Origin: Microbacterium sp. 10M-3C3
GTDB lineage: Bacteria > Actinomycetota > Actinomycetes > Actinomycetales > Microbacteriaceae
Assembly (NCBI RefSeq): GCF_003931875.1
Contig: NZ_CP034245.1
Location: forward strand, 372,001-436,000
Length of the DNA: 64,000 bases
Direction: 5' to 3'
Under the pieces are notes generated by a model. That model made no database searches. It saw nothing but the letters and a program-made list of their open reading frames with translations, and had not been told where the DNA came from. Shown here in pieces: positions 9,017 to 64,000 of the stretch (within the stretch, counting starts at the first letter, position 1; each line of letters begins with the position of its first letter). The position numbers and the translations under genes are program-made.

Positions 9017-9029
9017 CAAGGAGCACATC

Positions 9030-22200: not shown

Positions 22201-22202
22201 GC

Positions 22203-26638: not shown

Positions 26639-26642
<4 letters not shown>
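25641..26642 (+). CDS. Ketopantoate reductase family protein (ApbA/PanE-like)
   Basis: A 333-residue NADP-dependent 2-ketoacid reductase-like protein. The N-terminal motif YIVIGAGAVGGVLAAQW binds NADP, and VLAVKAQD follows the family pattern. The C-terminal helical domain is complete, with KRRKLLANLRN carrying the family lysine. Because it sits inside a sulfur operon and not with pantothenate genes, it more likely reduces another 2-keto acid released from the imported compound. Four-base overlaps join it to both neighbours. Confidence 0.8.
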
Positions 26643-47264: not shown

Positions 47265-48374
47265 GTGTCCACACCGCCGTTCCGCGCCGACATCGTCGGC
47301 AGCTTCCTCCGACCCGCCGCCCTCGCCGACGCCCGCCGCCGCCATGCCGACGGGCTGATCGACGACGAGGCGCTCCGCGTCGCGGAGGACACCACGATCG
47401 CCGAGCTCGTCGTGCAGGAGGCCGACGCCGGGCTGCGCCTCGCGACCGACGGCGAGTTCCGCCGGTCGTGGTGGCACTTCGACTTCTTCGGCGAGCTCGA
47501 CGGCGTCGACATCGTCGAGCTCGACCACGGCATCCAGTTCCAGGGCGTGCAGACCCGCCCGCGCGGCATCGAGATCTCCGGCCCGATCGGCTTCTCGCCG
47601 GCGCATCCGTTCCTCGAGCACTTCCGGTCGCTCAAGAGCATCGTGGAGCGCTCCACCGGCGCGGTCCCCAAGTTCACGATCCCCGCCCCCACGGTGCTCG
47701 ACTTCCGACTCGAGCCCGGCCACATCGCCGGCCCGTACGCGGGGCGCGACGACATCGTCGACGACCTCGTCACGGCGTACCGCGACGCGCTCGCGGCGTT
47801 CTACGAGGCCGGCGCGCGCTACGTGCAGTTCGACGACACCGCGTGGGCGTACCTGTGCTCGGACGTCGAGCTCGAGAAGGCACGTGCCCGCGGCATCGAG
47901 ACCGACGGCATCGCGGAGCGCTATGCGGCCCTGCTGAACCGCATCCTCGACGGCAAACCCGACGACCTGACCGTCACGACCCACGTGTGTCGCGGCAACT
48001 TCCGGTCGACGTGGATCTCGTCCGGCGGCTACGAGCCGGTGGCCGAGCAGCTGCTGGGTGCGACCGCGTACGACGGCTACTTCCTCGAGTACGACAACGA
48101 GCGCTCGGGCGGCTTCGAGCCGCTGCGCCACCTGCCGGCGGGTGACAAGACCGTCGTCCTGGGCCTGATCACGACGAAGACCGGCGACCTCGAGGACCCC
48201 GACGCCGTCAAGCGCCGCATCGACGAAGCCGCCGGCTTCGCGCCGCTCGAGCAGCTCGCGCTGAGCCCCCAGTGCGGCTTCGCCTCGACCGAGGAGGGCA
48301 ACGTCCTCACCGAGGACGAGCAGTGGGCGAAGGTGCGCGAAGTGGTCGCGATCGCCGCCGACGTCTGGCGCTGA
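47265..48374 (+). CDS. MetE-like cobalamin-independent methyltransferase domain protein
   Basis: A 369-residue protein equal to the catalytic half of MetE (methionine synthase). It lacks the N-terminal half. The zinc ligands are visible as His and Cys in TTHVCRGNFRS and Cys in LSPQCGFAST, with an EYDNERSGGFEPLRHL substrate loop. A GTG start with a -10 seven bases away is favoured over the upstream ATG. Being close to tetrahydrofolate-dependent O-demethylases, it could take the methyl group from methyl-tetrahydrofolate and pass it to a thiol such as homocysteine. This role is inference. Confidence 0.8.
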   Translation: MSTPPFRADIVGSFLRPAALADARRRHADGLIDDEALRVAEDTTIAELVVQEADAGLRLATDGEFRRSWWHFDFFGELDGVDIVELDHGIQFQGVQTRPRGIEISGPIGFSPAHPFLEHFRSLKSIVERSTGAVPKFTIPAPTVLDFRLEPGHIAGPYAGRDDIVDDLVTAYRDALAAFYEAGARYVQFDDTAWAYLCSDVELEKARARGIETDGIAERYAALLNRILDGKPDDLTVTTHVCRGNFRSTWISSGGYEPVAEQLLGATAYDGYFLEYDNERSGGFEPLRHLPAGDKTVVLGLITTKTGDLEDPDAVKRRIDEAAGFAPLEQLALSPQCGFASTEEGNVLTEDEQWAKVREVVAIAADVWR

Positions 48375-48380
48375 CGCGCG

Positions 48381-49328
48381 TCACACCAGCGGCGTGCCGT
48401 GGGTGTGGAAGGTCTCGATCGTCTTCATGCCCCACGCCTGACCCTTCTTGCGCTCCGTCTCGCTCCACTCCACGACCGGCTGGTCGGGGTCCAGAATCAG
48501 GCGGGCGCCGGCCTGCGCGAACTCGATGCGGTTGCCGCCCGGCTCCCATACGTACAGGAAGAACGTCTGGTTGATGGCGTGCTTGTGCGGGCCCGACTCG
48601 ATGTGGATGCCGTTCTCGAGGAAGATGTCGGCGGCCTTGAGGATGTCCTCGCGCGTGTCGGGCGCGAACGCGATGTGGTGCAGGCGGTTGCCGTGCTTCG
48701 TCCAGTCGTCGGAGTAGACGACGTCGTACGACTTCAGCGAGAAGTGGAACCACCACGCGGCGAAGCGGCCGTTGTCCAGCCGGATGCGCTCGGACTCCCG
48801 CATGCCCAGCGCCGTGGCCAGGAACTCGCCGTTGGCCTCGACGTCCTTCGCGAGGTAGTTGATGTGGTCGAGCCGCCGCGCGTTCACGCCGCGGCCCGGG
48901 AAGCGCGACGCCTGGTTCTTCAGCGCCGGCTTATCGTCGGTCGCGACGTAGCGCTCGGTGTCGTAGTAGATGCCCATCTCGTGGCCGTCGGGATCGTGGA
49001 AGACGAACGTACGGCCCGTTCCCACCTCGCCGTCGACCCACCCGTGGCCGAGCCCCGTGGCCTCGATCGCGGCCACCCGTCGCTCGAGCGCCTCCTCGGA
49101 CGAGGCGCGGAACGACGTGCGGCCGACGCCCGCGGCATCCGAGGCGGTGAGCTTGATCGTGTAGAGCTCGTACTCGTCCCACGTGCGCAGGTAGACCGAG
49201 TCGCCGCCCTCGGCGACGACGCGCATCGCGAGCAGCTCCTCGAAGAACCATCGGCTCTCGGCGGGCTTCGCGGTGAGCAGCTCGACGTTGGCGAGGTGGG
49301 CGACGTCGAACGACGTGTACGCGGTCAT
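48381..49328 (-). CDS. VOC-fold extradiol dioxygenase (catechol 2,3-dioxygenase type)
   Basis: A 315-residue type I extradiol dioxygenase with two VOC modules. The iron ligands match catechol 2,3-dioxygenase: H155 (RRLDHINYL), H217 or H218 (NRLHHIAF) and E269 (GNRIEF). Y259 and H248/H250 also agree with active-site residues of XylE-like enzymes. It is the last gene of a four-gene minus-strand operon after the GalB-, GalC- and GalD-like genes, and overlaps the GalD-like gene by 4 bases. From context it should open the ring of gallate, 3-O-methylgallate or a related trihydroxy acid. Sequence alone does not tell the substrate. Confidence 0.85.
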   Translation of the reverse strand: MTAYTSFDVAHLANVELLTAKPAESRWFFEELLAMRVVAEGGDSVYLRTWDEYELYTIKLTASDAAGVGRTSFRASSEEALERRVAAIEATGLGHGWVDGEVGTGRTFVFHDPDGHEMGIYYDTERYVATDDKPALKNQASRFPGRGVNARRLDHINYLAKDVEANGEFLATALGMRESERIRLDNGRFAAWWFHFSLKSYDVVYSDDWTKHGNRLHHIAFAPDTREDILKAADIFLENGIHIESGPHKHAINQTFFLYVWEPGGNRIEFAQAGARLILDPDQPVVEWSETERKKGQAWGMKTIETFHTHGTPLV

Positions 49329-50455
49329 GGGAGCGTCCTTCCTGACGGGGCGGGGGAGGCGGATGCGGCGGCCCGCGGGAACACGGTGCCGTCGAAGAGC
49401 TTGCGGGCCGTTCTGACGGACAGCGACGCGGCGTGCCACGCATCGGCGTCACGGCGCACGCGCACGCGCGAGATCAGGGAGCCGGTCGGGTGCTCGATCA
49501 CGATCGGCTCTTCCGACTCGGGGTCGGCGGAGCCGTCGCGCGCGACACCCGCGGCCACTGTGCCGGGGATCCGGAGGGCCGCGGCGACCGACGCGGCCAT
49601 GAGCACGCCGAGCGACGTGTGCACCCGGTGCGGGATGAAGGCGCGCGTGGCCACGTCGCCGCCGTCCGTGGGCGGGGCGAGGAGGATCACTTTTGGCACC
49701 GTCTGGTCGGACACGTCGCCGAGGCCCATGAGGGGCCCGGCGGCCAGGCGCAGCTCCTCGACCGCCCGGGCGACGGCCGCATCGGCCTCGAGCGCGGGCG
49801 GCGCCTCGGCGCCTGTCGCGCCCACGTCCTCAGCCCGCACGAGCACGACCGGCATGCCGTTGTCGATGAGGGTCACGGCGCGCCCGGCGACCTCGTCCCG
49901 CGCGCGCCCCGTCGGGAGCAGGGCCTTGCCCGCACCCGCCGAGACCTCCAGCTCGATCGGCGAGCCCGCGCCGGGCACGCCGTCGATCGCGGTGTCGCCG
50001 TCGTACCGCGGGCGTCCCTCCTCGACCGCGAAGGTCGCCGTGGCGATGTCGCCGGTGTTGACGAGCCGGATGCGCACGCGCGCGCTCGTGCCGCCCGCGG
50101 AGAGGAGGCCGCGCTCGAGCGCGAACGGGCCGATCCCGGCCAGGAGGTTCCCGCACGTCTGCGTGCGGGACACCCTCGGCTCGTCGATGCCGACCTGGAG
50201 GAAGAGGTAGTCGATGTCGACGCCCTCGGCCGTCGAGGGGCGGACGATCGCGACCTTGCTCGTGAGGGGGTGCGCCCCGCCGATGCCGTCGATCTGCCGC
50301 GGATCGGGGGAGCCCATGATGCGCAGGACGAGGTCGTCGACAGCGTCGTCCTCCGCGGGCAGGTCGTCGGCGAGGAAGTACGCGCCCTTCGAGGTGCCGC
50401 CGCGCAGGAGCATGCACGGCACGCCGTCGCGGTCGGGGTCACGCGGTGCCGGCAT
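49325..50455 (-). CDS. galD: PrpF family isomerase, 4-oxalomesaconate tautomerase (GalD-like)
   Basis: A 376-residue PrpF-fold protein. The N-terminal LRGGTSKGAYFLADDLP and the GGAHPLTSKVAIVRPS segment are hallmarks of the GalD/PrpF group, and the cysteine in TQTCGNLLAGIGPF is the second-half active-site Cys. GalD shifts the keto form of 4-oxalomesaconate to the enol form in gallate breakdown. Other PrpF proteins act on aconitate, but the GalB- and GalC-like neighbours point to gallate. It overlaps the RraA-like gene by 17 bases and the dioxygenase gene by 4. Confidence 0.85.
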   Translation of the reverse strand: MPAPRDPDRDGVPCMLLRGGTSKGAYFLADDLPAEDDAVDDLVLRIMGSPDPRQIDGIGGAHPLTSKVAIVRPSTAEGVDIDYLFLQVGIDEPRVSRTQTCGNLLAGIGPFALERGLLSAGGTSARVRIRLVNTGDIATATFAVEEGRPRYDGDTAIDGVPGAGSPIELEVSAGAGKALLPTGRARDEVAGRAVTLIDNGMPVVLVRAEDVGATGAEAPPALEADAAVARAVEELRLAAGPLMGLGDVSDQTVPKVILLAPPTDGGDVATRAFIPHRVHTSLGVLMAASVAAALRIPGTVAAGVARDGSADPESEEPIVIEHPTGSLISRVRVRRDADAWHAASLSVRTARKLFDGTVFPRAAASASPAPSGRTLP

Positions 50456-51149
50456 CGTATTCCGCCTGCGTCATGTATCGGATGCCGAGCTCGTCGACGA
50501 GCGGTCTGAGTCCCTTGCGGTCGAGGCTCAGCGCGCCGTCCGCGTAGGCGGTGCGGTCGGCCTCCTCCTTCGCGACGCGGGCGTCGGCGGCCGCGACGAC
50601 CTCGGCCGCGCGCTGCCGGGGGACGACGACAACGCCGTCGTCATCGGCGACGACGACGTCGCCGGGTCGCACCAGGGCGCCGGCCACGACGACGGGCACG
50701 TTCACCGAGCCGGGCGTGGCCTTCACCGTGCCCTGCGCGAACACGGCTCCCGACCACGCCGCGAACCCGAGCGCGCGCAGCTCGGCGGTGTCGCGGATGC
50801 CGGTCGTCGTGACGATGCCGCGCACGCCACGCGCGTGCAGCGCCGTGGCGAAGAGCTCGCCGAACGCGCCGTCGACCGACGGGGATGTCGTCGTCACGAC
50901 GAGCAGGTCGCCGGACCGGCACTGCTCCACCGCGACGTGGATCATGAGGTTGTCGCCCGGCGCGCACAGCACCGTGACCGCGGTCCCCGCCACGCGGCGG
51001 TCGGTCTGGATGGACCGGACGGCGGGGCCGACGAGACCCGTCCGTCCCATCGCCTCGTGAACCGTCGCGACGCCGTGTCGCCCCAGCGCCTCGACGTCCG
51101 CCGCATCCGCCCGTGCGATGTCGGTGACGACGACGGGACCGGCGGTCAT
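50439..51149 (-). CDS. galC: RraA-fold 4-carboxy-4-hydroxy-2-oxoadipate aldolase (GalC/LigK-like)
   Basis: A 236-residue RraA-family aldolase. The GELFATALHARGVRGIVTTTG strand and the RD of TGIRDTAEL form the metal and substrate site (G-x-L plus RD pattern). DNLMIHVAVEQCRSGDLLVV precedes it. This family splits 4-carboxy-4-hydroxy-2-oxoadipate into pyruvate and oxaloacetate, the last step of gallate and protocatechuate 4,5-cleavage routes. The start ATG overlaps the GalB stop by 4 bases. True RraA (RNase E inhibitor) is unlikely here because of the operon. Confidence 0.85.
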   Translation of the reverse strand: MTAGPVVVTDIARADAADVEALGRHGVATVHEAMGRTGLVGPAVRSIQTDRRVAGTAVTVLCAPGDNLMIHVAVEQCRSGDLLVVTTTSPSVDGAFGELFATALHARGVRGIVTTTGIRDTAELRALGFAAWSGAVFAQGTVKATPGSVNVPVVVAGALVRPGDVVVADDDGVVVVPRQRAAEVVAAADARVAKEEADRTAYADGALSLDRKGLRPLVDELGIRYMTQAEYDAGTA

Positions 51150-51892
51150 GACAGGACGCTCGTGACCTGCGGCAGATGCCGCATGTACGCCTCGCCCATC
51201 GTCTCGTGCGGGAGACCCAGGTTCGGCCCGGCGTTGCGCTTGACCTGCACGCCCCGGCGGACGGCGAGGTCGGTGTAGTACGACCACATGTGCTTCTGCG
51301 CGGGCAGGCACTCCATCGCGGCGCGCTTGCGGGGGAAGGCCTCGGTGATGTCGAGCAGCACGTTCGGTGTGAAGTCGCACTGCTCCGGCTGGTGCGGCTC
51401 GAAGAAGAACACCGGCGGCGCGCCGATGATCTCGTCCTTCGTCGGGAAGCTCCCGTCCGAGTTCGCGACACCGATCGCCTGCGCGAGGATGCGCGCCTGC
51501 AGCGCCATTCTGGCGGCGGCCGGATGGTCGCCGTTGTACGGGTCGCGCAGCGTGTGGGTGAGGACGACGGCGGGCTGCACGCGCCGGTACAGGTCGACCA
51601 GGCGCGCGACCGCCTCGGGCGACTCGACGAGCGGGTAGTCGCCCAGGTCGAGGAACTCGATCTCCGCGCCGAGGGCGGATGCTGCGGCCTCGGCCTCCTC
51701 GCGACGAATGCCCTTGATCTCGTCGAGCGACTTGCCCGCGAGCCACTGGCTGGCCGACTCGCCCCGCTCGCCGTACGACAGGCAGGCGACGACGGCGCGC
51801 TCGCCGCGCATCGCGGTCGCCGCGATCGCACCGCCCGCTCGCCACACGAAGTCGCCCGCGTGCGCGCTGATGACCAGGAGCGTCTCTGCCAT
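51146..51892 (-). CDS. galB: PIG-L family 4-oxalomesaconate hydratase (GalB-like)
   Basis: A 248-residue PIG-L-fold protein. The metal site is AHAGDFVWRAGG (residues about 9-20) instead of the usual AHPDDE of deacetylases; GalB-type hydratases show the same change. ACLSYGERGESASQWL is also seen in that group. LTHTLRDPYNGDHPAAA supplies later metal ligands. It is the first gene of the four-gene operon transcribed away from ligM. An upstream in-frame ATG at 51904 is less likely. It would hydrate 4-oxalomesaconate to 4-carboxy-4-hydroxy-2-oxoadipate. Confidence 0.85.
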   Translation of the reverse strand: MAETLLVISAHAGDFVWRAGGAIAATAMRGERAVVACLSYGERGESASQWLAGKSLDEIKGIRREEAEAAASALGAEIEFLDLGDYPLVESPEAVARLVDLYRRVQPAVVLTHTLRDPYNGDHPAAARMALQARILAQAIGVANSDGSFPTKDEIIGAPPVFFFEPHQPEQCDFTPNVLLDITEAFPRKRAAMECLPAQKHMWSYYTDLAVRRGVQVKRNAGPNLGLPHETMGEAYMRHLPQVTSVLS

Positions 51893-51931
51893 GCGGCCAG
51901 GCAATCACACCCCTGGTGGAATGGTCAACAA

Positions 51932-51943
51932 ATTGTCTACAAT
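51932..51943. promoter_or_regulatory. GntR-type operator between galB and ligM
   Basis: ATTGT-CT-ACAAT is a 5+2+5 inverted repeat in the 123-base gap between the divergent galB and ligM genes. With flanks it reads CAAATTGTCTACAATC, shared with the other two sites of this region. It is placed to control both operons. Confidence 0.65.
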
Positions 51944-51970
51944 CGTGGCGACGAATCCCTCTCCCCGTAG

Positions 51971-54770
<2,800 letters not shown>

Positions 54771-54783
<13 letters not shown>

Positions 54784-55559
54784 CCCTCCGAGCCCGCGCG
54801 ATGGGTGCGCTCCAGCCGCGCGAGCGTCGCGCGGGCCATGTCGGCGGGGGTTCCCGCCGCCTCGAGAGCGTCCACGACGGCCGCCATCTCGTCCGCGCGC
54901 CTTGCGGCGTGCCGGGCGGTCCCCGTGACGAGGCGGTCGAGGAGGGCCTCGCCGTCGGGGCCGAGCTCGCGCGCCATCTGCGTCCGCAGCCACGCCTCCG
55001 CTCCCGCGGGACGCGCCGCGTCGAGTCCTTCCATCACGAGCGCTGCGAGGCCCTTCATGAACGCGCTGCGCAGCAGCCGCAGCCGCGCCGCCTCGCCCGC
55101 AGGCGCGTCGAGCACGTCGACGGGCACCCCGAAGGGCGCGAGGCGCGCGGCGAAGGCGGCGGCACCCGTGCCGCTGGCGATCAGCGGCGTGCGGTGTCCC
55201 GCGCGAGGCACGGGTGCGAGCACACCCACGTCGGCCATCGCCACCCCGCGCCGCGCCGCGACGTCCGCCACCGCCGCCTTGACCTCGGCCGCGGCGGTGT
55301 TCAGATCGGCGTAGACGACACCGTTGTGCATGTGCGGCAAGGCGGCGGCGGCGACGTCGATCGCCACGCGCGCATGCACGAGGCTCAGGACGACGTCCGC
55401 GTCCGCCACCGCATCCGCGAGCGTCGCGCGCTCCGCGACCCCCGGGTGCTCGAGGCGGTGGGCCGGGTCGAACCCCCGCACCTCGGCGCCGGCCGCGGCG
55501 AGCCCGGTGGCGTAGCGCGATCCGGCTTCGCCGAGGCCGATGACCGCCACGCGCGTCAC
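54771..55559 (-). CDS. NAD(P)-dependent oxidoreductase with DUF1932 (6-phosphogluconate dehydrogenase-like)
   Basis: A 262-residue dehydrogenase of the 6-phosphogluconate/3-hydroxyisobutyrate group. The GTG start is an overlap with the IclR stop. The N-terminal VAVIGLGEAGSRYATGLAAAG binds the cofactor, and the C-terminal AARLRLLRSAFMKGLAALVMEGL matches DUF1932. Members of this group are found in aromatic catabolic clusters, but the reaction is not established. The catalytic Lys of related dehydrogenases may be the K of FMKGL. Confidence 0.75.
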
Positions 55560-56422
55560 GGCCGCGACCCCGCCTCGGGGAGGCCCTCGAGGTACTCGAG
55601 CGACCGCCGCGACCTGGTGAGCAGCGCGCGCAGCGCGTGCTCGTGCGCATCGGGGCGATAGGCCTTGCGCAGGTCGCGGGCGATGCCCGCGGCCGCGCGC
55701 CGGAGCACCTCGACGTACGGCGCGGGCGGGCTGTCGTCGTTCGCGACCACGACGCCGATCGCCGCGTAGACCGTCGCATCCGGGCCTTCGACGGGCACCG
55801 CGACGCCGCGCGACTCGGGGTGGATGAAGCCGTCGGCCACGGCGTAGCCGTCGCGGCGCACGTGCGCGAGCGCCGTGTGCAGCTGCGCGGGGGTGCGGAG
55901 GCCGCGGTCGGTGACCGGCTCGAATCCTCCCGCGACGACGTCGTCGATGACCGCGGGCTCGGCCCACGCCAGGAGGACGAGCCCGCTCGAGGACAGCGGG
56001 AGCGGGATGCGGCCACCCAGCAGCGTCGCGTTCACGACCGCGTCGCGGGCCGAGAGCCGCTCGACGAACAGCACGTCGCGGGCGCTGCGCACGCCCAGCT
56101 GCACGTGCTGGCGCACCCGTTCGTGCACGGCTCCGAGCCACGGGCGGGCGACCTCGCGCAACCCGATCGCGCCGGGAGTGCGGCTCGCGAACTCCCACAG
56201 CCGCACGCCCAGCCGGTACGACCGGTCGGGGAGGCGCTCGATCAGGCCCTCGCGCTCGAGGTCGCGCAGCAGCCGGTGCGCGCTCGAGCGCGGCAGTCCG
56301 GTCGCGAGGGCGATCTCGGTGAGCGTGCGGTACGGATGCCACGCGTCGAAGCTCTCCAGGATGCGGATGTGGCGGCGCAGCACCGACTCCGGCTCGGCAT
56401 GCGGCTGCGTCTGCGCGGGCAT
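55556..56422 (-). CDS. IclR family transcriptional regulator
   Basis: A 288-residue IclR protein. The winged helix is at residues 20-80 (RTLTEIALATGLPRSSAHRLLRDL and a wing), and the effector domain has the usual GFEPVTDRGLRTPAQL region and GVAVPVEGPDATVYAAIGV. The IclR family often controls aromatic acid genes (PcaR, PobR). It shares an operon with the DUF1932 oxidoreductase and lies next to the third demethylase-like gene. Target sites are not evident. Confidence 0.88.
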   Translation of the reverse strand: MPAQTQPHAEPESVLRRHIRILESFDAWHPYRTLTEIALATGLPRSSAHRLLRDLEREGLIERLPDRSYRLGVRLWEFASRTPGAIGLREVARPWLGAVHERVRQHVQLGVRSARDVLFVERLSARDAVVNATLLGGRIPLPLSSSGLVLLAWAEPAVIDDVVAGGFEPVTDRGLRTPAQLHTALAHVRRDGYAVADGFIHPESRGVAVPVEGPDATVYAAIGVVVANDDSPPAPYVEVLRRAAAGIARDLRKAYRPDAHEHALRALLTRSRRSLEYLEGLPEAGSRP

Positions 56423-56459
56423 CGCGTCCTCCTCGACCCCGCCATGGTAGTCGCCGCGG

Positions 56460-57827
56460 TCAGCGGTCCGAGCGGTACACCGTCCGGGCGAAGTCGTGGA
56501 AGGGCGCGGGCGCGACGGTCGCGCGGATCGGCACCTGACGGTGCACGGCGTCGACCGACGCCTTGCGGGTGACGGGCTCCTCGCCCCACACGATCTGGAC
56601 CTCGGTGCCGTCGGGCACGTCGACGTCGATCGTCGCGAGGGACATGTACAGCTGATCGAACGCGACGTAGCCCGCGTCGGTGGAGATGCCGACGAGGCGG
56701 TCGCCGAGGCGCACCTCGTCCATCTGATAGAAGCCGTAGCGGGCTTTCGGGAAGTCGAGGTACTTCGCCGGGATCCCGGGCTCCACCTGCGAGCGCACGA
56801 CCGCGGCGACGTCCTCGGCGTGCCACAGGAGGGTGGCCTTCCGTCGGCGCGGGGCGGCGGCGTGGCGCTCGAGGGCGGCGCGTCCGTGGAAGTCGTGATC
56901 GAAGCGCACCGAGCGGCCGAGCCCGATGTCGAACGGCGTCATGTAGTACGCGTGGATGTCGGCGGGCGCGTAGGAGCCCGCGAGCGAGCCTGCGCGCGCG
57001 GCGGGGAGCCAGGCGCGGTACGCGTCGGCGTCCGCGTCGAAGATCGCCGGGAACGGCGTCGGCACCCAGCCGGATTCGAGCGGCGTCGACGAGTACGCCT
57101 TGGCGCCCACCCGTCGGATGCCGTGTTCGGCGCCCGCCGCCATGATGGCCTCGAGCACGGCCTCGTTGTCCTCCCACGCTCCGTAGAACTCGAAGCCCGG
57201 CTGCCCGGCCATGCCGTGACGCAGCGCGCGCAGACGCCGCCCCGCGATCTCGACCTCGCCGATGTGGAAGAACTTCAGCTCGGGCGGCGGGCCGCCGAAG
57301 AGGATCGTCATGACGACGTCCGCCTGAGGCCCCTGCAGCTCGTACCGGAAGAACGTCGGCGGTCCCTGGCGCATGTGCGAGTTGCCCTCGAGGCGCGCAT
57401 GCACGTCGTGTCCGTCGGTCGCCGCGCGCTCGACGTGGAAGCGCACCCAGTCGATCAGCAGGTGGTGCCCGACGAGGACGAGCCCCTCGGGTCCCCGGGC
57501 GTTGTAGAAGAGGATCCCGTCGCCGATGAGGAAGCCGTCGTCGTTGACCGCGATGAGTTGCTTCGCGACGCCCGGGCGGAAGGTCGCGAACGTGTTCGGC
57601 GAGATCGAGGCCAGCAGCGGCAGCAGATCGTCCCCATGGAGGAACAGCTGCGTCATGTGGTGCGACTGGTCCATCAGGGCGACGCTGGTCATCCATGAGC
57701 GCTGCTCGTCGCGCCAGTTGGTGAATTCCGGCGCCACCGGGAAGGTGAAGGCCGGCCAGTCCTGGTTGCGCAGCAGCTCGACAGGGCCGCCCACTCGTGT
57801 GATCGCGTCCGCCAGTGTCTCGGTCAT
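56460..57827 (-). CDS. LigM/DesA-like aryl O-demethylase, paralogue 3
   Basis: A 455-residue GcvT-fold protein related to LigM and to paralogue 2. It begins MTETLADAITRVGGPVELLRN; the ATG at 57827 follows GGAGGGT. The pair of tyrosines at 27 and 29 is Phe and Phe, and the LigM arginine is replaced by His (LVLVGHHLLIDW). The GAKAYSSTPLESGW tyrosine is kept. It faces the divergent importer genes and shares an operator region with them. Substrate is unknown but probably another methoxylated aromatic acid. Confidence 0.8.
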   Translation of the reverse strand: MTETLADAITRVGGPVELLRNQDWPAFTFPVAPEFTNWRDEQRSWMTSVALMDQSHHMTQLFLHGDDLLPLLASISPNTFATFRPGVAKQLIAVNDDGFLIGDGILFYNARGPEGLVLVGHHLLIDWVRFHVERAATDGHDVHARLEGNSHMRQGPPTFFRYELQGPQADVVMTILFGGPPPELKFFHIGEVEIAGRRLRALRHGMAGQPGFEFYGAWEDNEAVLEAIMAAGAEHGIRRVGAKAYSSTPLESGWVPTPFPAIFDADADAYRAWLPAARAGSLAGSYAPADIHAYYMTPFDIGLGRSVRFDHDFHGRAALERHAAAPRRRKATLLWHAEDVAAVVRSQVEPGIPAKYLDFPKARYGFYQMDEVRLGDRLVGISTDAGYVAFDQLYMSLATIDVDVPDGTEVQIVWGEEPVTRKASVDAVHRQVPIRATVAPAPFHDFARTVYRSDR

Positions 57828-57940
57828 CGTCGACCCTCCTCGTCCGGCGCCAGCGTACGAGCGCGTTCGACCGGGTCGATGCGCCCGCTTCCGCTGAGCG
57901 GAAGTCACGATCGCACGACGACTCGGATGCTGACGCCAAA

Positions 57941-57952
57941 ATCGTTGACAAT
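57941..57952. promoter_or_regulatory. GntR-type operator over a promoter of the liv-type operon
   Basis: ATCGT-TG-ACAAT matches the site near ligM (full form CAAAATCGTTGACAATC). TTGACA (57945-57950), a 17-base spacer and TACCGT (57968-57973) form a good sigma-70 promoter for the importer, so a bound repressor would block it. It also faces the divergent paralogue 3 gene. Confidence 0.7.
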
Positions 57953-58012
57953 CTCGGAGCGAATCCGTACCGTCCCAGCAGGACCACACGCGACGACGCG
58001 AAGGGAGCCGGC

Positions 58013-58792
58013 ATGGGAGCACGTCTCGCGGTTCGCGACGTGAGCCTGCACTTCGGCGGGGTGAAAGTGCTCGAGGACGTCGGCTTCACCGTCGACGACG
58101 GACAGATCCTCGGCCTCGTGGGCCCCAACGGCGCCGGCAAGACGTCGCTGTTCAACTGCGTGAGCGGGCACTACCGGCCGAGCGCGGGCTCCATCACGAT
58201 CGACGACGTCGAGATCATCGGATCCTCTCCCGCGCGCCTCGCGCGACACGGCCTGGCGCGCACGTTCCAGCATCCCGCGCTCCAGCTGCACGACACGGTG
58301 CTCGAGAACGTGCTCCTCGGCGCGCACGGCCGCCTGCCGGGCGGCCCGGTCGAGTGGGCGCTGCGCCTGCCGCGCACGACGCGCACCGAGAAGCAGCTGC
58401 GGGCCGAGGCCCTGGATCTGCTCGAGCGCAACGGCCTCGGCTGGGCCGCCCGCACCCGCGCCGACGAGCTCTCGCACGGCCTGCACAAGGGCATCGAGCT
58501 GTGCCGCGCGCTGCTCATGCGCCCGCGCCTGTTGCTTCTGGACGAACCCGCCGCGGGGCTTCCGCACGGCGAGGTCGAGCAGCTCATCGCCTCCGTCCGC
58601 CGCGTGCGCGACGAGGGCATCACCGTCGTGATCGTCGAGCACAACATGGGACTCATCTCGGCGGTCACCGACCGCGTCGTCGTCCTCGACCACGGCCGCA
58701 AGCTCATGGAGGGGACGGCCGCCGAGGCGCAGGCCGACCCGCGCGTCATCGAGGCCTACATCGGGAAGGACGCCGCCGATGACGCTGCTTGA
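58013..58792 (+). CDS. Branched-chain-type ABC ATPase (LivG-like)
   Basis: A 259-residue LivG ATPase with Walker A GPNGAGKTS (38-46), signature LSHGLHKGIELCRAL and Walker B LLLLDEP. GPNGAGKTSLFNCVSG is the usual HAAT-type sequence. It opens a five-gene importer operon and follows AAGGGAGC ahead of ATG 58013. It overlaps LivF by 14 bases. In the context of aromatic genes it likely energises uptake of aromatic acids. Confidence 0.92.
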   Translation: MGARLAVRDVSLHFGGVKVLEDVGFTVDDGQILGLVGPNGAGKTSLFNCVSGHYRPSAGSITIDDVEIIGSSPARLARHGLARTFQHPALQLHDTVLENVLLGAHGRLPGGPVEWALRLPRTTRTEKQLRAEALDLLERNGLGWAARTRADELSHGLHKGIELCRALLMRPRLLLLDEPAAGLPHGEVEQLIASVRRVRDEGITVVIVEHNMGLISAVTDRVVVLDHGRKLMEGTAAEAQADPRVIEAYIGKDAADDAA

Positions 58793-59489
58793 GCTCGTCG
58801 ACGTCCGGGCGTTCTACGGGCGCGTGCAGGTGCTCGACGGTGTGTCGCTGAGCGTCCCCGAGGGCGGCGCCGTCGGCATCCTCGGGGCGAACGGGGCCGG
58901 GAAGACCACGACGCTGCGCGCGGTGTCGGGCACCGTGCGCTCGGCCGGCACGATCCGCTTCGAGGGTCGCGAGCTGCGGGGGCTCCGGCCGGACCAGGTC
59001 GCAGGCCTGGGCATTGCGCACGTGCCGGAAGGGCGCGGCACGCTCGCCGACCTCACCGTGCGCGAGAACCTCCGCGTGGGCGCCTACAAGCGCAAGGACG
59101 GCAAGGCGGTGGCGCGCGACATCGACTACTGCCTCGACCTCTTCCCGCAGCTGAAGGACCGCATCCGCTCCGCCGGCTCCGCCCTCTCCGGCGGGGAGCA
59201 GCAGATGCTCGCCATCGCGCGCGCCATCATGTCGGCGCCACGCCTGCTGCTGCTGGACGAAGCCTCCCTCGGGCTCGCTCCGGGCACCGCGAAGACCGTC
59301 TACCAGGCCATCGGGCGCCTGCGGAAGGAGTCCGGCATCGCCATGGTCGTGGTCGAGCAGAACGCCAACCTCGCCTTCACCCTCGTCGACAGCGCGACCG
59401 TGCTCGAGACCGGCCGGAGCGTCCTGACGGGGAGCACCGCCGAGCTGCGCGGCATGGACGAGATCCGCCGCGCCTACCTGGGGGGCTGA
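58779..59489 (+). CDS. Branched-chain-type ABC ATPase (LivF-like)
   Basis: A 236-residue LivF ATPase: Walker A GANGAGKTT, signature SALSGGEQQMLAIARAIM, Walker B LLLLDEASLGL. LivF and LivG form the energy-giving pair. The gene is two bases from LivH, so the genes are translated as a unit. Confidence 0.93.
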   Translation: MTLLELVDVRAFYGRVQVLDGVSLSVPEGGAVGILGANGAGKTTTLRAVSGTVRSAGTIRFEGRELRGLRPDQVAGLGIAHVPEGRGTLADLTVRENLRVGAYKRKDGKAVARDIDYCLDLFPQLKDRIRSAGSALSGGEQQMLAIARAIMSAPRLLLLDEASLGLAPGTAKTVYQAIGRLRKESGIAMVVVEQNANLAFTLVDSATVLETGRSVLTGSTAELRGMDEIRRAYLGG

Positions 59490-59491
59490 GG

Positions 59492-60373
59492 ATGGGGACG
59501 TTCATCCAGCTGATCGTCGACGGGCTGTCGACCGGCTCGGTCTACGCGGCGCTGGCCCTCGCCATCGTCCTGGTCAACCAGGCGACAGGGCTCATCAACT
59601 TCGCGCAGGGCGGCATGGCGGTGCTCTCGGCATACATCGCGTGGGCCCTGAACGGCGTCGGCCTGCCCCTCATCGTCGCGATCGTGGCCGCCGTCGCGAT
59701 CTCCTTCGTCCTGGGGGCGGTGATAGAGCGCTTCCTCGTGCGGCGGTTCGAGCGCGGCGACCCCGACACCGCCGTCGTCGTGACCGTGGGCCTGCTGACC
59801 CTCATCACGGGCGTCTGCGCGTGGATCTGGACCTACAACAACCGGCAGTTCCCGTCGCTGTTCCCCCTCGACACCGTCTCGATCGCGGGGGCGGTCGTGA
59901 GCCTTCGCTCGCTCGGCACCATCGTGGTCATCGTCGTCATCATGCTGGTGCTTCAGGCGCTGTTCCTCGGCACGAAGCTCGGGCTCGCGCTACGCGCGGT
60001 CGCCGTGAACCCCGCATCCGCGGCGTTCTCGGGCATCCCGGTCGGCCGCCACCTCATGATCGGCTGGGGCCTGGCGGCGTCGCTGGGCGCCGTCGCCGGC
60101 GTGCTCGTCGCGCCGCAGCTCACGCTCACCCCCGGGATGATGGACTCGGCGCTCGTGTACGCGCTCGCGGCCGTCATCCTCGGGGGGCTCACGAGCCCGC
60201 TCGGCGTGGTCGTGGCCGCGTGGCTCATCGGGGTGCTCGAGAACCTCGCCGCGGTCTACGTGCCCTTCATCGGCCACGACCTGAAGATCGCGGTGCCCTT
60301 CATCCTCATCTTCGTCGTGCTCATCATCCGGCCGCAGGGCCTGTTCGGTCGCCGATCGGTGGTGCGCGTATGA
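59492..60373 (+). CDS. Branched-chain-type ABC permease (LivH-like)
   Basis: A 293-residue permease with about eight membrane helices. MGTFIQLIVDGLSTGSVYAALALAIVLVNQATGLINFAQG is the classic LivH opening, and NPASAAFSGIPVGRHLMIGWGLAASLGAVAG carries the ATPase contact. It overlaps LivM by 4 bases. Confidence 0.93.
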   Translation: MGTFIQLIVDGLSTGSVYAALALAIVLVNQATGLINFAQGGMAVLSAYIAWALNGVGLPLIVAIVAAVAISFVLGAVIERFLVRRFERGDPDTAVVVTVGLLTLITGVCAWIWTYNNRQFPSLFPLDTVSIAGAVVSLRSLGTIVVIVVIMLVLQALFLGTKLGLALRAVAVNPASAAFSGIPVGRHLMIGWGLAASLGAVAGVLVAPQLTLTPGMMDSALVYALAAVILGGLTSPLGVVVAAWLIGVLENLAAVYVPFIGHDLKIAVPFILIFVVLIIRPQGLFGRRSVVRV

Positions 60374-61416
60374 CCGCTCCCGCCGCCCCGGCCACGCCGC
60401 TCATGCAGCGGCGGTGGGTCGTGTGGGCCGTCGCCGCCATCGTCGTGGTGGTCCTCGCCGTGCTGCCCCTGGTCCTCCCCGAGTTCGCGAACCAGACCCT
60501 CGCGCGTGTCGGCGTGTTCGCCGTGGCGGTGCTGGGGCTCAACGTCGTCATGGGCTACACCGGCCAGGTCTCGCTCGGGCAGATCTTCTTCGTCGGGCTG
60601 GGCGCCTACGTCACCGCCTTCGGCGTCAACGCCGACTGGAACATCGTGCTCGTCTTCGCGCTCGCGTGCCTAATCCCGGCCGTGGCGGGTCTGCTCGTCG
60701 CGCTCGCCGCCGCGCGCCTCGGCGGTCTCGCGATCGCGATGGTGACGATCGCGCTGCCGATCGTGGGCGTGCCGCTGGCCAAGCGCCTCTCCGACCTCAC
60801 CGGCGGCTCGCAGGGCACCTCGGCGCGCTTCTCGGATGCGCCGGAATGGTCGGGCCTGTACGACGACCAGTGGCAGCTGTACCTCGTGATCCTCATCGGC
60901 GGCATCACGTTCCTCCTCACGCGCAACCTCGTGCGCGGCAAGTACGGGCGCGCGTTCGCGATCGTCAAGGGCAACCAGGCCGTCGCCGCCTCGATGGGCG
61001 TCTCGCCCTACCGGTACAAGGTGCTCGCCTTCACGATCGCCTCGCTCATCGGCGGCGTGAGCGGATTCCTCTACATGGTCGTGATCCAGTACACCTCGCC
61101 CGAGACGCTCTCCTTCGGCCACTCGATCGAGCTGCTGGCGGCCATGGTCATCGGCGGCGCCGGCAGCATCGTCGGCTCGATCCTCGGCGGTGCGTGGTAC
61201 GTGCTCGTGCCGCAGATCACCAACATCATCGACCCCAACATCACGGCGGTGCTGCAGGGCGCGATCCTCCTGATCGTGCTGTTCATCCTGCCGGGCGGCC
61301 TCGTGTCGCTGCCGCGGCTGTTCCGTCGTCGCCGAGCGGCCGCGCCGCGGGCGGGCGCCGCATCCGACGCGCCGGACGTTCCCATCGAGACACCGAGAGA
61401 GAGGCACCAATCATGA
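60370..61416 (+). CDS. Branched-chain-type ABC permease (LivM-like)
   Basis: A 348-residue permease. The first helix (VVWAVAAIVVVVLAVLPLVLP), the GYTGQVSLGQIFFVGLGAY block and the NQAVAASMGVSPYRYKVLAF contact segment are typical of LivM. The tail is rich in Ala, Arg and Pro. It pairs with LivH and overlaps the binding-protein gene by 4 bases. Confidence 0.93.
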   Translation: MTAPAAPATPLMQRRWVVWAVAAIVVVVLAVLPLVLPEFANQTLARVGVFAVAVLGLNVVMGYTGQVSLGQIFFVGLGAYVTAFGVNADWNIVLVFALACLIPAVAGLLVALAAARLGGLAIAMVTIALPIVGVPLAKRLSDLTGGSQGTSARFSDAPEWSGLYDDQWQLYLVILIGGITFLLTRNLVRGKYGRAFAIVKGNQAVAASMGVSPYRYKVLAFTIASLIGGVSGFLYMVVIQYTSPETLSFGHSIELLAAMVIGGAGSIVGSILGGAWYVLVPQITNIIDPNITAVLQGAILLIVLFILPGGLVSLPRLFRRRRAAAPRAGAASDAPDVPIETPRERHQS

Positions 61417-62678
61417 GCACGAATCGCAGGATGCGGCGCGCCGCGGCGGTCGTGGCCGGGATCGGCATCGTCGCCGTCCTCGCCGCCGGGTGTGCACGCG
61501 GAGGCGGCGGCGGAGACCGCAGCGACGACGGGGGAGCCGCCGCGAGCCCGGGCATCGACGACACATCGATCACGCTGGGCATCACGACGCCGCTGAGCGG
61601 TGCGACCGCCGGCCCCGGCACGTGCACGGTGGCGGGCATCACGGCCTACTTCGGCGCGAAGAACGCCGCGGGCGGGGTCGAGTTCGGCGACGGGAAGACC
61701 CGCGAGGTCAAGATCGAGGCGCTCGACGACGAGTACGACCCGCAGAAGGCCAAGTCCAACTACGACCAGCTCAAGAGCAGCGTCTTCGCCATGACGGCGG
61801 GCCTCGGCACCCCGACCAACCGCGCGTGGCGGGAGGCGGCGACCGCCGACGAGGTGCCGCAGGCACTCATCATGACCGGCGACCCGATCTTCTCGTCCGT
61901 CGAGGAGAGCCCGTGGTCGCTCGGCTTCGTGCCGATCTACCAGAACGAGGGTCAGGCGTTCGGCGAGCTGCTGGCATCGTCGGGCGATGAGCACAAGGTC
62001 GCGATCCTGTCGCAGAACGACGACTACGGCGAGGGCTACGTCGAGGGCTTCAAGAAGGGCATCGAGGGCGCCGACAACATCCAGATCGTCAAGGAGCTCA
62101 CGTACGAGTCGACCGACACGTCCGTCGACGCCCAGCTGACCGAGCTCGCCGGCTCCGGCGCCGACGTGTTCTTCGACGCGATGTCGATCACGCCCCTCGT
62201 GATCTCGTCGCTGCAGAAGGCGCAGGAGCTCGGCTGGCTGCCGTCGTGGTTCCTGCCGTCCAACACGTCGAGCCCCACGGCGATCCTCGAGCCCGGCGGC
62301 GCCGCGGCCTTCCCCGGCGTCTACACGGTCGCCTTCGCGCAGTCCGCGTCGGCGCCGACCTTCGCCGAGAGCGAGGCCGGCTCGACCTTCCTGTCCGACC
62401 TCAAGCAGTACGGGAACTACCCCGACACCCCGGCCTTCCCGCACTGCGTGTGGTCGTACCAGGTCGGCGCGACGCTGGACCAGGTGTTCCAGAAGATGAC
62501 CGAGCCCACGCGCGAGGACTTCATGAAGCAGCTGCGATCGGTCTCCGGCTACACCGCGCCGCTCATGCTCGACGGCTCGAGCGTCGACACGACGCAGGAC
62601 GGGCAGCCGGCGGTCTCGACCGTGCAGGTGCAGAAGTACAACGGCAAGGGCTACGCGCCGGCCGAGAGCTGGGGCTGA
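61413..62678 (+). CDS. Branched-chain-type ABC substrate-binding lipoprotein
   Basis: A 421-residue periplasmic-binding-protein-like lipoprotein. The signal has Arg residues, a hydrophobic core and lipobox LAAGC with the acylated Cys at 27. A Gly-rich linker follows, then the family-6 (HAAT) fold beginning TSITLGITTPLSGATAG. Ligand type is not clear from sequence; aromatic acids are a reasonable guess because such importers serve benzoate and related compounds elsewhere. It is the last gene of the operon and is followed by a large hairpin. Confidence 0.92.
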   Translation: MSTNRRMRRAAAVVAGIGIVAVLAAGCARGGGGGDRSDDGGAAASPGIDDTSITLGITTPLSGATAGPGTCTVAGITAYFGAKNAAGGVEFGDGKTREVKIEALDDEYDPQKAKSNYDQLKSSVFAMTAGLGTPTNRAWREAATADEVPQALIMTGDPIFSSVEESPWSLGFVPIYQNEGQAFGELLASSGDEHKVAILSQNDDYGEGYVEGFKKGIEGADNIQIVKELTYESTDTSVDAQLTELAGSGADVFFDAMSITPLVISSLQKAQELGWLPSWFLPSNTSSPTAILEPGGAAAFPGVYTVAFAQSASAPTFAESEAGSTFLSDLKQYGNYPDTPAFPHCVWSYQVGATLDQVFQKMTEPTREDFMKQLRSVSGYTAPLMLDGSSVDTTQDGQPAVSTVQVQKYNGKGYAPAESWG

Positions 62679-62682
62679 TCCC

Positions 62683-62727
62683 GCGCGGAATGGGGTGGCG
62701 CCCGCGGGGCGTCACCCCATTCCGCGC
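62683..62727. terminator. Long bidirectional hairpin between the importer operon and gntR
   Basis: An inverted repeat pairs 62683-62702 with 62708-62727 over 20 base pairs with a single G-T wobble and a five-base loop. It contains the last codons of the gntR gene on the other strand. No T-tract follows, but the stem is very stable. It can end transcription coming from both sides. Confidence 0.75.
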
Positions 62728-63371
62728 AGCACCTCGACGATGCCCGATAGGTGGTCGCGCGTCGCCCGCTCCGCCGCATCCGGATCTTGTGCGAGAACCG
62801 CGTCGATGATCGCGACGTGCTCGGGGGCCGACTGCGCAGCCCGCCCCGGCGCGAAGGCGAGGCGGAACTGGTGCCGCGCCGACTGGGCGTGGAGGCGCTC
62901 GAGGAGCGTCGACGCGGTGCCGTGCCCGCTGTACGCGCGCAGCAGCCGGTCGAGCTCCTGGTTGGCGCGCGAGTACGACACGAGGTCGCCGGCCGCCGCG
63001 GTCCGCTCGATCTCCGCCCGCAGGGCGGCGAGCGTCGCGGCGCCCTCGGGCGTGAGGTTCTCGGCGGCCTTCCGCGCCACGAGGGTCTCCAGTCCGATGC
63101 GCACCTCGACGATCTCCACGGCCTCCTCGACCGTGATGGCCCGCACACGCGCGCCGCGGTTGGGGAGTCGCTCGACGAGCCCCTCTCCGGCGAGGTTCAT
63201 GAGGGCCGTCCGCACCGCCGCACGCGACGCGTCGTAGCGCTCGCTGAGGTCGGCCTCGATGAGGCGCTGATGCGGCGCGAACTCCGCCGCGAGGATCGCC
63301 TCCCGGATGCGCTGGGTGAGATCCGGTCGCGCGGTGTCGTCGATGTCGGCCACCGCCGTCGCATCCGTCAT
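62712..63371 (-). CDS. GntR family regulator (FadR/FCD type)
   Basis: A 219-residue FCD-type GntR regulator. The winged helix (residues about 18-72) includes RLIEADLSERYDASRAAVRTALMNLAGEGLVERLPNRGARV. The C-terminal helical FCD domain has the metal-binding His residues (AYSGHG, ARHQFRL, ATRDHLSGI). ATG 63371 is the start; the operator at 63442-63453 lies upstream and between it and the divergent aldehyde dehydrogenase gene. It is the best candidate to bind the three shared operators, as VanR-like GntR proteins do. Confidence 0.85.
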   Translation of the reverse strand: MTDATAVADIDDTARPDLTQRIREAILAAEFAPHQRLIEADLSERYDASRAAVRTALMNLAGEGLVERLPNRGARVRAITVEEAVEIVEVRIGLETLVARKAAENLTPEGAATLAALRAEIERTAAAGDLVSYSRANQELDRLLRAYSGHGTASTLLERLHAQSARHQFRLAFAPGRAAQSAPEHVAIIDAVLAQDPDAAERATRDHLSGIVEVLRGMG

Positions 63372-63441
63372 GGCTCGCTCCTCGCCGTCGTCGGTCCGAC
63401 GATAGCGCCCGCCGGACATCTCCGCCGAAATCCGCGCGCAA

Positions 63442-63453
63442 ATCGTCGACAAT
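63442..63453. promoter_or_regulatory. GntR-type operator between gntR and the aldehyde dehydrogenase gene
   Basis: ATCGT-CG-ACAAT matches the other two sites (full form CAAATCGTCGACAATC). It sits between the divergent gntR and aldehyde dehydrogenase genes, so the regulator would control itself and the enzyme gene. Confidence 0.7.
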
Positions 63454-63525
63454 CTTGGCTCGCGATCTTGATCCGGGGACGACGGGGGAGGACCCTGGAG
63501 GCACTGTTCACAGAGAGGTGACCAC

Positions 63526-64000
63526 ATGACCGACACGATGCCCGGCGTCGCCGTGCGCACGGGACTGTTCATCGGGGGCGAGGAGCGCTTCACCGACCGC
63601 GTTCTGACGGTGGCCGACCCCGCTCGCCCCGGAGCCGTCGTAGGAGAGGCCGCATCCGCGTCGCCGGAGGATGTCGCGGACGCCGTCGCCGCCGCGAAGG
63701 CCGCCTACCCGGCCTGGGCCGCGCTGAGCGCGCAGGAGCGCGCGGCCCGAATGGCCGAGGCGATCGCGGGAATCGCCGACGAGCGCGACACGGATGCCGC
63801 GGTGCTCTCGCAGGAGAACGGCAAGGTGCGCTTCGAGGCGTGGGTCGACGCCCTCGTCTTCGAGCTGCGTTGGAACCTCGCGCTCATGCTCGCCGACCAG
63901 GTCGACGCCACCGCCACGCTGCCGCCGGTGCCCGGTGCGATCCCCGTGACGACGGAGGTGGCGTATCAGCCGCTCGGCGTCGTGACCGTCATCGTGCCCT
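63526..64000 (+). CDS. NAD-dependent aldehyde dehydrogenase, N-terminal part (truncated by window)
   Basis: Translation from ATG 63526 gives 158 residues of a typical aldehyde dehydrogenase: LFIGGEERFTDR, TVADPARPGAVVGEAASAS, AAKAAYPAWAALSAQERAARM and the start of YQPLGVVTVIVP, where the cofactor site begins. The catalytic Cys and Glu lie beyond the window. Its place next to the shared operator suggests oxidation of an aromatic aldehyde such as vanillin or syringaldehyde to the acid. GAGAGG at 63512-63517 may be its ribosome binding site. Confidence 0.85.
   Translation, partial: MTDTMPGVAVRTGLFIGGEERFTDRVLTVADPARPGAVVGEAASASPEDVADAVAAAKAAYPAWAALSAQERAARMAEAIAGIADERDTDAAVLSQENGKVRFEAWVDALVFELRWNLALMLADQVDATATLPPVPGAIPVTTEVAYQPLGVVTVIVP

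Follow-up and report, generated by a model that had tools for sequence, protein, structure and literature searches.

The window (the whole 64,000-nucleotide stretch of Microbacterium sp. 10M-3C3, a soil actinobacterium) carries at its right end a confirmed island for lignin-acid demethylation and gallate breakdown, which does not stop with the window but extends to about 68.9 kb, counted in window coordinates. Its sole ring-opening candidate, g44, is by its sequence a type I (VOC) extradiol dioxygenase and belongs to a family other than that of GalA and DesB, the described gallate dioxygenases, which are type II (LigB) enzymes. The clade to which g44 belongs is best explained as a family of type I gallate dioxygenases that has so far gone unrecognised. 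Gene clusters of like make-up were found again in other genomes, which excludes a chance grouping. The features, in window coordinates, are as follows.

46514–47128, TetR gene (g42), directly before 47265, where the preliminary description begins the island
47265–48374, + strand, MetE-like cobalamin-independent methionine synthase, short form (g43); NF005085 526.6 bits, cut-off 313
48381–49328, − strand, type I (VOC) extradiol dioxygenase, proposed gallate dioxygenase (g44); PF00903 and PDB matches
49325–50455, − strand, GalD, 4-oxalomesaconate tautomerase (g45); NF033377 443.2 bits, just over the cut-off of 440
50439–51149, − strand, GalC/LigK, 4-carboxy-4-hydroxy-2-oxoadipate aldolase (g46); NF006731 311.5 bits, cut-off 179
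51146–51904, − strand, GalB, 4-oxalomesaconate hydratase (g47); an ATG at 51892 is also a possible start
51932–51943, candidate GntR operator ATTGT-N2-ACAAT in the galB/ligM divergent promoter, the sole exact match in the window
52016–53437, + strand, LigM, vanillate/3-O-methylgallate O-demethylase (g48); PDB 5x1i (LigM) E 2e-213
53434–54783, + strand, DesA-like demethylase, likely acting on syringate (g49); DesA and LigM models
54771–55559, − strand, DUF1932/6-phosphogluconate-dehydrogenase-like oxidoreductase (g50); PF09130, PF03446
55556–56422, − strand, IclR regulator (g51); PF01614, PF09339
56460–57827, − strand, diverged DesA/LigM-like demethylase (g52)
57941–57952, second candidate operator ATCGTTGACAAT in the g52/importer divergent promoter
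58014–58792, + strand, importer ATPase, LivG-like (g53); ATG at 58014 from the sequence, 58040 by the gene caller
58779–59489, + strand, importer ATPase, LivF-like (g54); named by eye from sequence and operon place
59492–60373, + strand, importer permease, LivH-like (g55); named by eye from sequence and operon place
60370–61416, + strand, importer permease, LivM/UrtC-like (g56); model matches under cut-offs
61413–62678, + strand, importer substrate-binding lipoprotein (g57); named by eye, no match among NCBIfam models
62712–63452, − strand, GntR/FCD regulator (g58); PF07729, PF00392; the true start is probably an internal ATG near 63371
63442–63453, third candidate operator ATCGTCGACAAT, between the probable g58 start and g59
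63526–65022 (window ends at 64000), + strand, aldehyde dehydrogenase (g59); 39 ALDH-type models matched, none over cut-off among the 25 matches listed
just past the window end, PadR gene (g60)
beyond the window end, second LigM (g61), adjoined by the pair PurU (g62) and diverged MetF (g63)

The LigM homologue with two diverged paralogues, the GalB-, GalC- and GalD-like enzymes, the extradiol dioxygenase, the ABC importer (five genes, g53–g57, of the branched-chain-amino-acid type) and the aldehyde dehydrogenase that the preliminary description had listed are all present. Among the regulators, the IclR and GntR/FCD genes lie in the island as it was delimited there, a TetR gene lies just before its start and a PadR gene just after the window end. 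The genes g43 and g50 had been missed or left unnamed, as had g61, g62 and g63 past the window end. PADLOC gave no match for five proteins at the left window end.

The hydratase g47 aligns over residues 8–229 with the 4-oxalmesaconate hydratase of PDB 5cgz (E 4e-76, the next chain being at 7e-7), and the aldolase g46 falls below the narrower TIGR02798 cut-off (274 vs 304.5). PcaH and PcaG exceed their cut-offs in the closed genome, so that protocatechuate is probably degraded via 3,4-cleavage; the beta-ketoadipate genes are encoded 36 kb past the window end, and vanillate-derived protocatechuate probably enters them.

The island holds four LigM/DesA-type demethylase genes, two of them LigM equivalogs and two diverged. 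Against NF047885 (LigM, cut-off 580) g48 and g61 pass with 900.0 and 868.2 bits, whereas g49 (507.9) and g52 (415.9) fail; against NF047633 (DesA, cut-off 800) all four fail, with 617.7 for g48, 600.8 for g61, 569.9 for g49 and 456.2 for g52. Since no protein reached the DesA cut-off, only the name "DesA-like" is used, g49 scoring higher with the DesA model than with the LigM model. The same protein matches at 63.6% a Rhodococcus opacus plasmid protein encoded in a one-carbon and ring-cleavage cluster. A GcvT, sarcosine or dimethylglycine role, the doubt raised in the preliminary description, was rejected, the best GcvT model giving 54.5–79.4 bits vs 416–900 for LigM. A Rieske VanA was likewise sought in the genome and rejected: of the four Rieske matches, three look by eye, from their surroundings, like a FAD-linked oxidoreductase, a beta-lactamase-fold protein and QcrA, and the fourth lies in an open frame of 226 aa, which is short for VanA. 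LigM is known to be partnered with MTHFR (PMC12585457). The methyl group is likely to be handled by PurU and MetF outside the window, the MetF-like g63 reaching only 46.5 bits with the MTHFR model (cut-off 293.7), and g43 is a possible methyl acceptor. The demethylases are not the new element here: LigM/DesA-like proteins had already been predicted in Actinobacteria, as stated in the excerpt of PMC9296663, and in a sample of 396 genomes from the order 21 have a LigM above the cut-off.

The island is probably under a GntR regulator. Three operator-like sites were observed in the window against 0.07 expected, out of seven in the whole genome, and across 22 aligned galB/ligM promoters the ACAAT half is invariant while the left half varies.

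The ring-opening enzyme g44, whose unusual family the preliminary description had overlooked, matches the Pfam family Glyoxalase (PF00903), i.e. the VOC domain, and its relatives of the same fold by PDB search, Foldseek and VIA-align are catechol and homoprotocatechuate 2,3-dioxygenases. The LigB domain PF02900 is unmatched by g44 and by anything else in the closed genome. Through alignment with homoprotocatechuate 2,3-dioxygenase (HPCD) via the genome's own HpaD paralogue, it was found that the metal ligands His-His-Glu are retained as H155, H218 and E269; H155 and E269 occur in 101 of the 101 clade members examined and H218 in 100. The second-sphere catalytic His (His200 in HPCD) is Tyr201 in g44, and Tyr is found in all 101 members examined; each of the 11 plasmid relatives above 53% likewise has it. 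In contrast, the HpaD paralogue has His at this position, as do three further homologs, and the catalytic His is present in the 3 outgroup homologues compared. The Tyr clade has 97/96 support in the tree. This His is regarded as essential, and without it the activity could be changed or lost. A search of open-licence PMC papers returned no description of a type I gallate dioxygenase.

Whole genomes, contigs of named genomes and plasmids served as sources of g44 relatives. The relatives span Actinomycetota, Pseudomonadota and Thermus and are annotated "catechol 2,3-dioxygenase" or "VOC family". A contig scan gave at least 567 confirmed relatives, and the best 80 of these together with 20 further loci were read. 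GalC or GalD lies near the g44 relative in 76 of these 100 loci; GalB accompanies them in 47, the unrelated hydratase LigJ (named by PDB comparison) in 24, neither in 5 and both in none. Among the best 80, 21 are without GalC/GalD in the stretch taken, 13 of them from Bradyrhizobium, and the two Bradyrhizobium loci inspected adjoin genes resembling a molybdenum hydroxylase; GalC is missing at 4 of 11 Tyr-type plasmid loci. The clade may therefore have more than one function. A MetE-like gene is found at 12 of the best 80, and DUF1932 dehydrogenases like g50 recur. In Agrobacterium pAt the order is PIG-L protein (the GalB type), g44 relative, galC, galD and then a tannase, and the same gal neighbours occur in Thioclava, Roseibium, A. 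vitis and a Paracoccaceae plasmid. Another Agrobacterium has the g44 relative with galC/galD, and Thermus oshimai has it with PIG-L/galC.

The association was also seen among 396 genomes sampled from the order Actinomycetales, where a strong GalD is present in 17 of the 21 genomes with a strong g44 relative vs 24 of 396 overall (Fisher p 7e-21, kinship ignored). Nine of those 17 have no PF02900 match, and all 7 GalD genomes without a strong g44 relative have one. Absence of LigB as a rule for genomes with a g44 relative was ruled out, since 12 of the 21 have a LigB match. An intradiol dioxygenase (PF00775) is found in 17 of the 21; hence many of these genomes, though not all, would have a 3,4-route for protocatechuate in addition to g44.

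We consider it likely that the island is a module for syringyl/guaiacyl lignin acids in which g44 opens gallate after folate-dependent demethylation. The model builds on the genes, families, gene order, conserved residues, operator-like sites and lack of LigB observed in the genome, and it predicts all substrates, the flow of folate and the regulation. Methoxylated aromatic acids would be imported by the ABC importer; syringate would be converted to 3-O-methylgallate by g49 (perhaps g52); and the LigM proteins g48 and g61 would convert 3-O-methylgallate to gallate and vanillate to protocatechuate, with the methyl group passing to tetrahydrofolate. The folate would be recycled by g63 and PurU, part of the methyl perhaps being used by g43. 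Gallate would be opened by g44 to 4-oxalomesaconate, which GalD, GalB and GalC would turn into pyruvate and oxaloacetate, and a separate PcaHG pathway would take protocatechuate. A GntR/FCD repressor, probably g58, would act on ATTGT-N2-ACAAT-like sites at three divergent promoters. Of the route given in the preliminary description, LigM-type demethylation into the gallate pathway via GalD, GalB and GalC stands, and the dioxygenase has to be replaced, being of type I with no GalA/DesB homologue present. We further suggest, tentatively and with clearly less confidence than for the pathway as a whole, that g44 represents a cross-phylum type I gallate dioxygenase family independent of the LigB type, in which Tyr has taken the place of the proton-handling His; part of the role of that His would then fall to gallate's third hydroxyl, in a substrate-assisted ring opening.

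Which substrate g44 opens can be weighed against its neighbours. Cleavage of 3-O-methylgallate via a CHMOD methyl ester to oxalomesaconate, with gallate secondary, as by MgaAB of Pseudomonas NGC7, would lead into the same GalD, GalB and GalC (excerpt of PMC12314914), and the Rhodococcus opacus plasmid does combine a g49-like demethylase, a LigB-type dioxygenase and a hydrolase. However, the gal operon here is without an ester hydrolase, two LigM equivalogs of the type making gallate from 3-O-methylgallate are present, and the Agrobacterium relative is linked to a tannase, a releaser of gallate; moreover, LigM-type genes occur at only 27 of the best 80 of at least 567 loci, so most loci are without such a demethylase in the stretch taken. 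We therefore regard this reading as improbable.

Still less probable is that g44 is a protocatechuate 4,5-dioxygenase. The 4,5-pathway also ends with equivalents of GalD, GalB and GalC, and the DUF1932 dehydrogenases beside g44 relatives might conceivably replace LigC; yet no LigC-type dehydrogenase or LigI lactonase was recognised within the island, none of the three Amidohydro_2 proteins of the genome matched a LigI model (one of them was compared with PDB), PcaHG genes are present at another place in the genome, and the tannase again points to gallate. Very little weight is likewise given to an ordinary catechol 2,3-dioxygenase placed by chance beside gal genes. The 303.5 bits with the catechol 2,3-dioxygenase equivalog TIGR03211 (a near miss, cut-off 320.2), the "catechol 2,3-dioxygenase" annotations on plasmids and the label "Catechol 1,2-dioxygenase" of the closest solved relative, PDB 9wgj, which has the Tyr too, speak for it. 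Against it, the linkage to galB, galC and galD is repeated across three phyla, and the two homologs at loci of catechol type, which have dmpG and hydroxylase genes next to them, share about 40% identity and still carry the His.

If g44 does open gallate, a key step in the breakdown of tannin and syringyl lignin evolved on two or more occasions, with a second solution that is common yet concealed by the catechol label, many "catechol 2,3-dioxygenase" entries being misnamed. The "missing" ring opening of gallate/syringate routes would be filled for many actinobacteria, and syringate/gallate use would become predictable in those without LigB-type genes. Gram-positive lignin engineering would gain a compact single-gene dioxygenase along with formaldehyde-free demethylation, and enzymology a naturally occurring His-to-Tyr change in an active site that has been studied intensively.

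Compared with known systems, the island resembles Sphingobium SYK-6 (DesA, LigM, DesB, LigU, LigJ, LigK) in its folate-dependent demethylases and its 3-O-methylgallate/gallate intermediates, and SYK-6 LigM works with S6MTHFR, for which the diverged MetF-like g63 would be the counterpart in the island. SYK-6 opens gallate with the type II DesB and uses LigAB for protocatechuate, whereas the island has a type I enzyme and probably relies on PcaHG; LigJ there corresponds to GalB here. With the gal genes of Pseudomonas putida (galTAP, galBCD) the island shares the GalD, GalB and GalC steps and the proposed gallate substrate, but there the dioxygenase is the LigB-type GalA rather than a type I enzyme, and the excerpt of PMC12314914 gives a LysR-type GalR and galT/galP transport. 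According to the same excerpt, Pseudomonas sp. NGC7 has the lower pathway GalD, GalB and GalC as in the island, and, unlike it, Rieske VanA1B1 demethylation with formaldehyde release and cleavage of 3-O-methylgallate by MgaAB. PcaA of Pseudarthrobacter phenanthrenivorans Sphe3 is an actinobacterial extradiol dioxygenase that converts gallate too; in contrast to g44, it is described in the excerpt of PMC8431788 as a single-subunit type II enzyme with protocatechuate as main substrate. Relative to the type I enzymes catechol 2,3-dioxygenase, AphC and HPCD, g44 differs in having Tyr201 for HPCD His200, in Ser245 for R243 and, aligned by eye, in Gly296 for R293, and, unlike these extradiol dioxygenases, it sits in a gal operon.

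The window covers positions 372001-436000 of the closed 3.39-Mb genome. Gene prediction in it and in the next 17 kb delimits a compact island that spans 47.3-68.9 kb (window numbering). Its features, with two further dioxygenase genes of the genome, are:

47265-48374, convergent with g44: g43, MetE-like protein
48381-49328, minus strand: g44, type I extradiol dioxygenase
minus strand, all four genes abutting from g44 on: g45, GalD; g46, GalC; g47, GalB
divergent from g44-g47: g48, LigM; g49, DesA-like protein
54771-55559: g50, DUF1932 dehydrogenase; then g51, IclR regulator, and g52, third demethylase
g53-g57: importer; then g58, GntR regulator, and g59, aldehyde dehydrogenase
outside the window: g60, PadR regulator; g61, second LigM; g62, PurU; g63, diverged MetF
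genome 505406-506242: catechol-like type I dioxygenase in an apparent aromatic cluster
genome 1040001-1040888: type I dioxygenase close to homoprotocatechuate 2,3-dioxygenase

HPCD numbering was transferred to g44 through the genome's own HpaD paralogue. The ligands H155, H218 and E269 are retained, together with N157, W193, H250 and Y259, whereas His200, Arg243 and Arg293 of HPCD are replaced by Tyr201, Ser245 and, in an alignment read by eye, Gly296. Tyr201 is found in all 101 members compared and in 11/11 plasmid relatives above 53% identity; R293 and H308 are likewise invariant in 101/101, with other residues in the four His-type sequences compared. The Tyr clade has a support of 97/96 in a 56-row tree, though with two very long outgroup branches. 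According to the DesB paper, the catalytic His is essential and sits at the same position in DesB (type II) and BphC (type I), so that its clade-wide loss is unusual. Purely as a hypothesis, the third hydroxyl of gallate would compensate for the missing His. The two other type I dioxygenases of the genome both carry the normal catalytic His.

Of the 396 genomes sampled from the order, 21 hold a strong g44 relative (≥319 bits; next score 163 bits) and 24 a strong GalD (≥428 bits; next score 316 bits), 17 having both (Fisher p 7e-21, not corrected for kinship). PF02900, the family of described gallate dioxygenases, was searched in the 28 genomes forming the union of the two sets. Nine of the 17 shared genomes have no match and eight have one; in genomes with only one of the two strong, a match is always present (7/7 for GalD alone, 4/4 for the g44 relative alone). 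Hence every GalD genome (24/24) carries one dioxygenase kind or both: 17 have a strong g44 relative and the other seven a PF02900 match. Some of the LigB matches score weakly, at about 100 bits, and could belong to other pathways.

Neighbourhoods, fetched up to about 10 kb on each side, were compared for the best 80 of 567 named loci and 20 unnamed ones, many of them close kin and some possibly of the same species. The stretch includes GalC or GalD in 59/80 named and 17/20 unnamed loci, and in 51/80 and 12/20 a co-oriented GalD sits no more than 400 bases from the g44 relative. Among the 76 GalC/GalD loci the hydratase is GalB in 47, LigJ (identified from PDB 2gwg, E 1e-152) in 24, neither in five and both in none. 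Such an exchange of two unrelated hydratases in one slot beside a constant g44 relative is the prediction of a shared oxalomesaconate route. GalC and GalD are both missing from the stretch in 21/80 named loci, 13 of them Bradyrhizobium. GalC was found at seven of 11 opened Tyr-type plasmid loci and not at the other four (Roseomonas, Methylobacterium and two Pantoea); at the Agrobacterium 186 plasmid locus a tannase is next in the row. The His-type loci of Thermus thermophilus HB8 and Rhodococcus pyridinivorans adjoin a 4-hydroxyphenylacetate 3-hydroxylase-like gene, dmpG and acetaldehyde dehydrogenase.

We propose g44 as a putative type I gallate dioxygenase. The deposited structure 9wgj, labelled 'Catechol 1,2-dioxygenase', is a close g44 relative that also has the Tyr; given this deposition, its substrate may already be known to somebody.

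Several other features accompany g44 relatives. Two Bradyrhizobium loci carry a Tyr-type dioxygenase, perhaps with a different substrate, that has no gal genes beside it and adjoins genes judged by eye to be molybdenum-hydroxylase-like. The DUF1932 dehydrogenase, superfluous to every step of the known gallate route, lies near g44 relatives in 28/80 named and 8/20 unnamed loci by tblastn (12/20 by clustering), and also with them on Roseomonas, Agrobacterium, Methylobacterium and Thioclava plasmids.

Among the best 80 of 567 named loci, the closest g44 relatives, those at 85-94% identity, are mostly from Microbacterium, which places the host in or near that genus. In the order sample, 3/18 genomes listed for the host's genus, the host included, have a relative above 80% identity, and the island is therefore patchy. 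It may have spread by transfer; its G+C is 71.2%, little different from the 72.0 and 72.8% on either side.

Elsewhere in the window, a gene whose product ends in an Ntox4 domain (480-1919) is followed by a gene row (1916-10217) in which five scanned genes gave no Pfam match, and together they look like a polymorphic-toxin or secretion-type locus. At 17335-26642 lies a probable operon for the use of sulfur compounds, a single row with a rhodanese (scan) and, by eye, genes of peptide-type ABC, acyl-CoA-dehydrogenase-like and luciferase-like monooxygenase kinds.

The galB/ligM promoter contains ATTGT-N2-ACAAT, with near-copies in the other two divergent promoters. Three operator-like sites with at most one mismatch lie in the window against 0.07 expected, a number reached in 0/100 shuffles. 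Genome-wide, seven distinct sites match ATYGTNNACAAT, three of them in the window, and the reversed-pattern control has no genome match. In 22 aligned galB/ligM promoters the ACAAT half is invariant and the left half variable; the 100 loci contain 15 instances of the exact TTGT-N2-ACAA core between LigM and GalB. FadR/FCD-type GntR sites have the form T-N-G-T...A-C-N-A, which the candidate site fits, and GntR g58 is the natural candidate for its regulator. IclR g51 and PadR g60 may contribute extra control; in other bacteria, vanillate genes have IclR-type and PadR-type VanR regulators, according to PMC12314914.

As the preliminary description had proposed, a LigM homologue is present: g48 scores 900 bits and g61 868 bits with the NCBIfam LigM equivalog (cut-off 580), and g48 matches crystallised LigM at E 2e-213. 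The two diverged paralogues it had named, g49 and g52, are borne out as well, the DesA model outscoring the LigM model with both below either cut-off. Identity is 70% for g48/g61, 56% for g49/g52 and 43-48% across the pairs, and the GSRAY/GAKAY-motif Tyr, the catalytic Tyr247 of LigM, is kept by all four. On a Rhodococcus opacus plasmid, a 63.6% g49 relative adjoins MetF, PurU, a FolD-type protein, a LigB-type dioxygenase, a hydrolase, a PIG-L (GalB-type) protein and GalC, and these neighbours suggest that the g49 kind would convert syringate to 3-O-methylgallate. The same cluster also has folP, pabB and a Mur-ligase-like gene, a self-contained demethylation and one-carbon set. LigM above cut-off occurs in 21/396 genomes of the order, seven of which belong to the 21 that have a strong g44 relative.

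The same description knew of no described example in Microbacteriaceae. Searches of open-licence PMC papers showed no type I gallate dioxygenase. As for the demethylases, LigM/DesA-like proteins were predicted earlier in Actinobacteria (PMC9296663) and Kocuria genes are reported with annotations as vanillate and syringate O-demethylases (PMC12343579), so that this half of the result is not new in kind.

As for the methyl group, MetE-like g43 may be a sink; a MetE-like gene recurs in 12/80 named loci and also close to the g44 relative of Pantoea piersonii. Because g63 is distant from standard MTHFR (46.5 bits, cut-off 293.7), we can only infer a reaction through g61-g62-g63 in the manner of SYK-6, where LigM is paired with an MTHFR homologue working in reverse (PMC12585457), a pairing that the g61-g62-g63 set matches.
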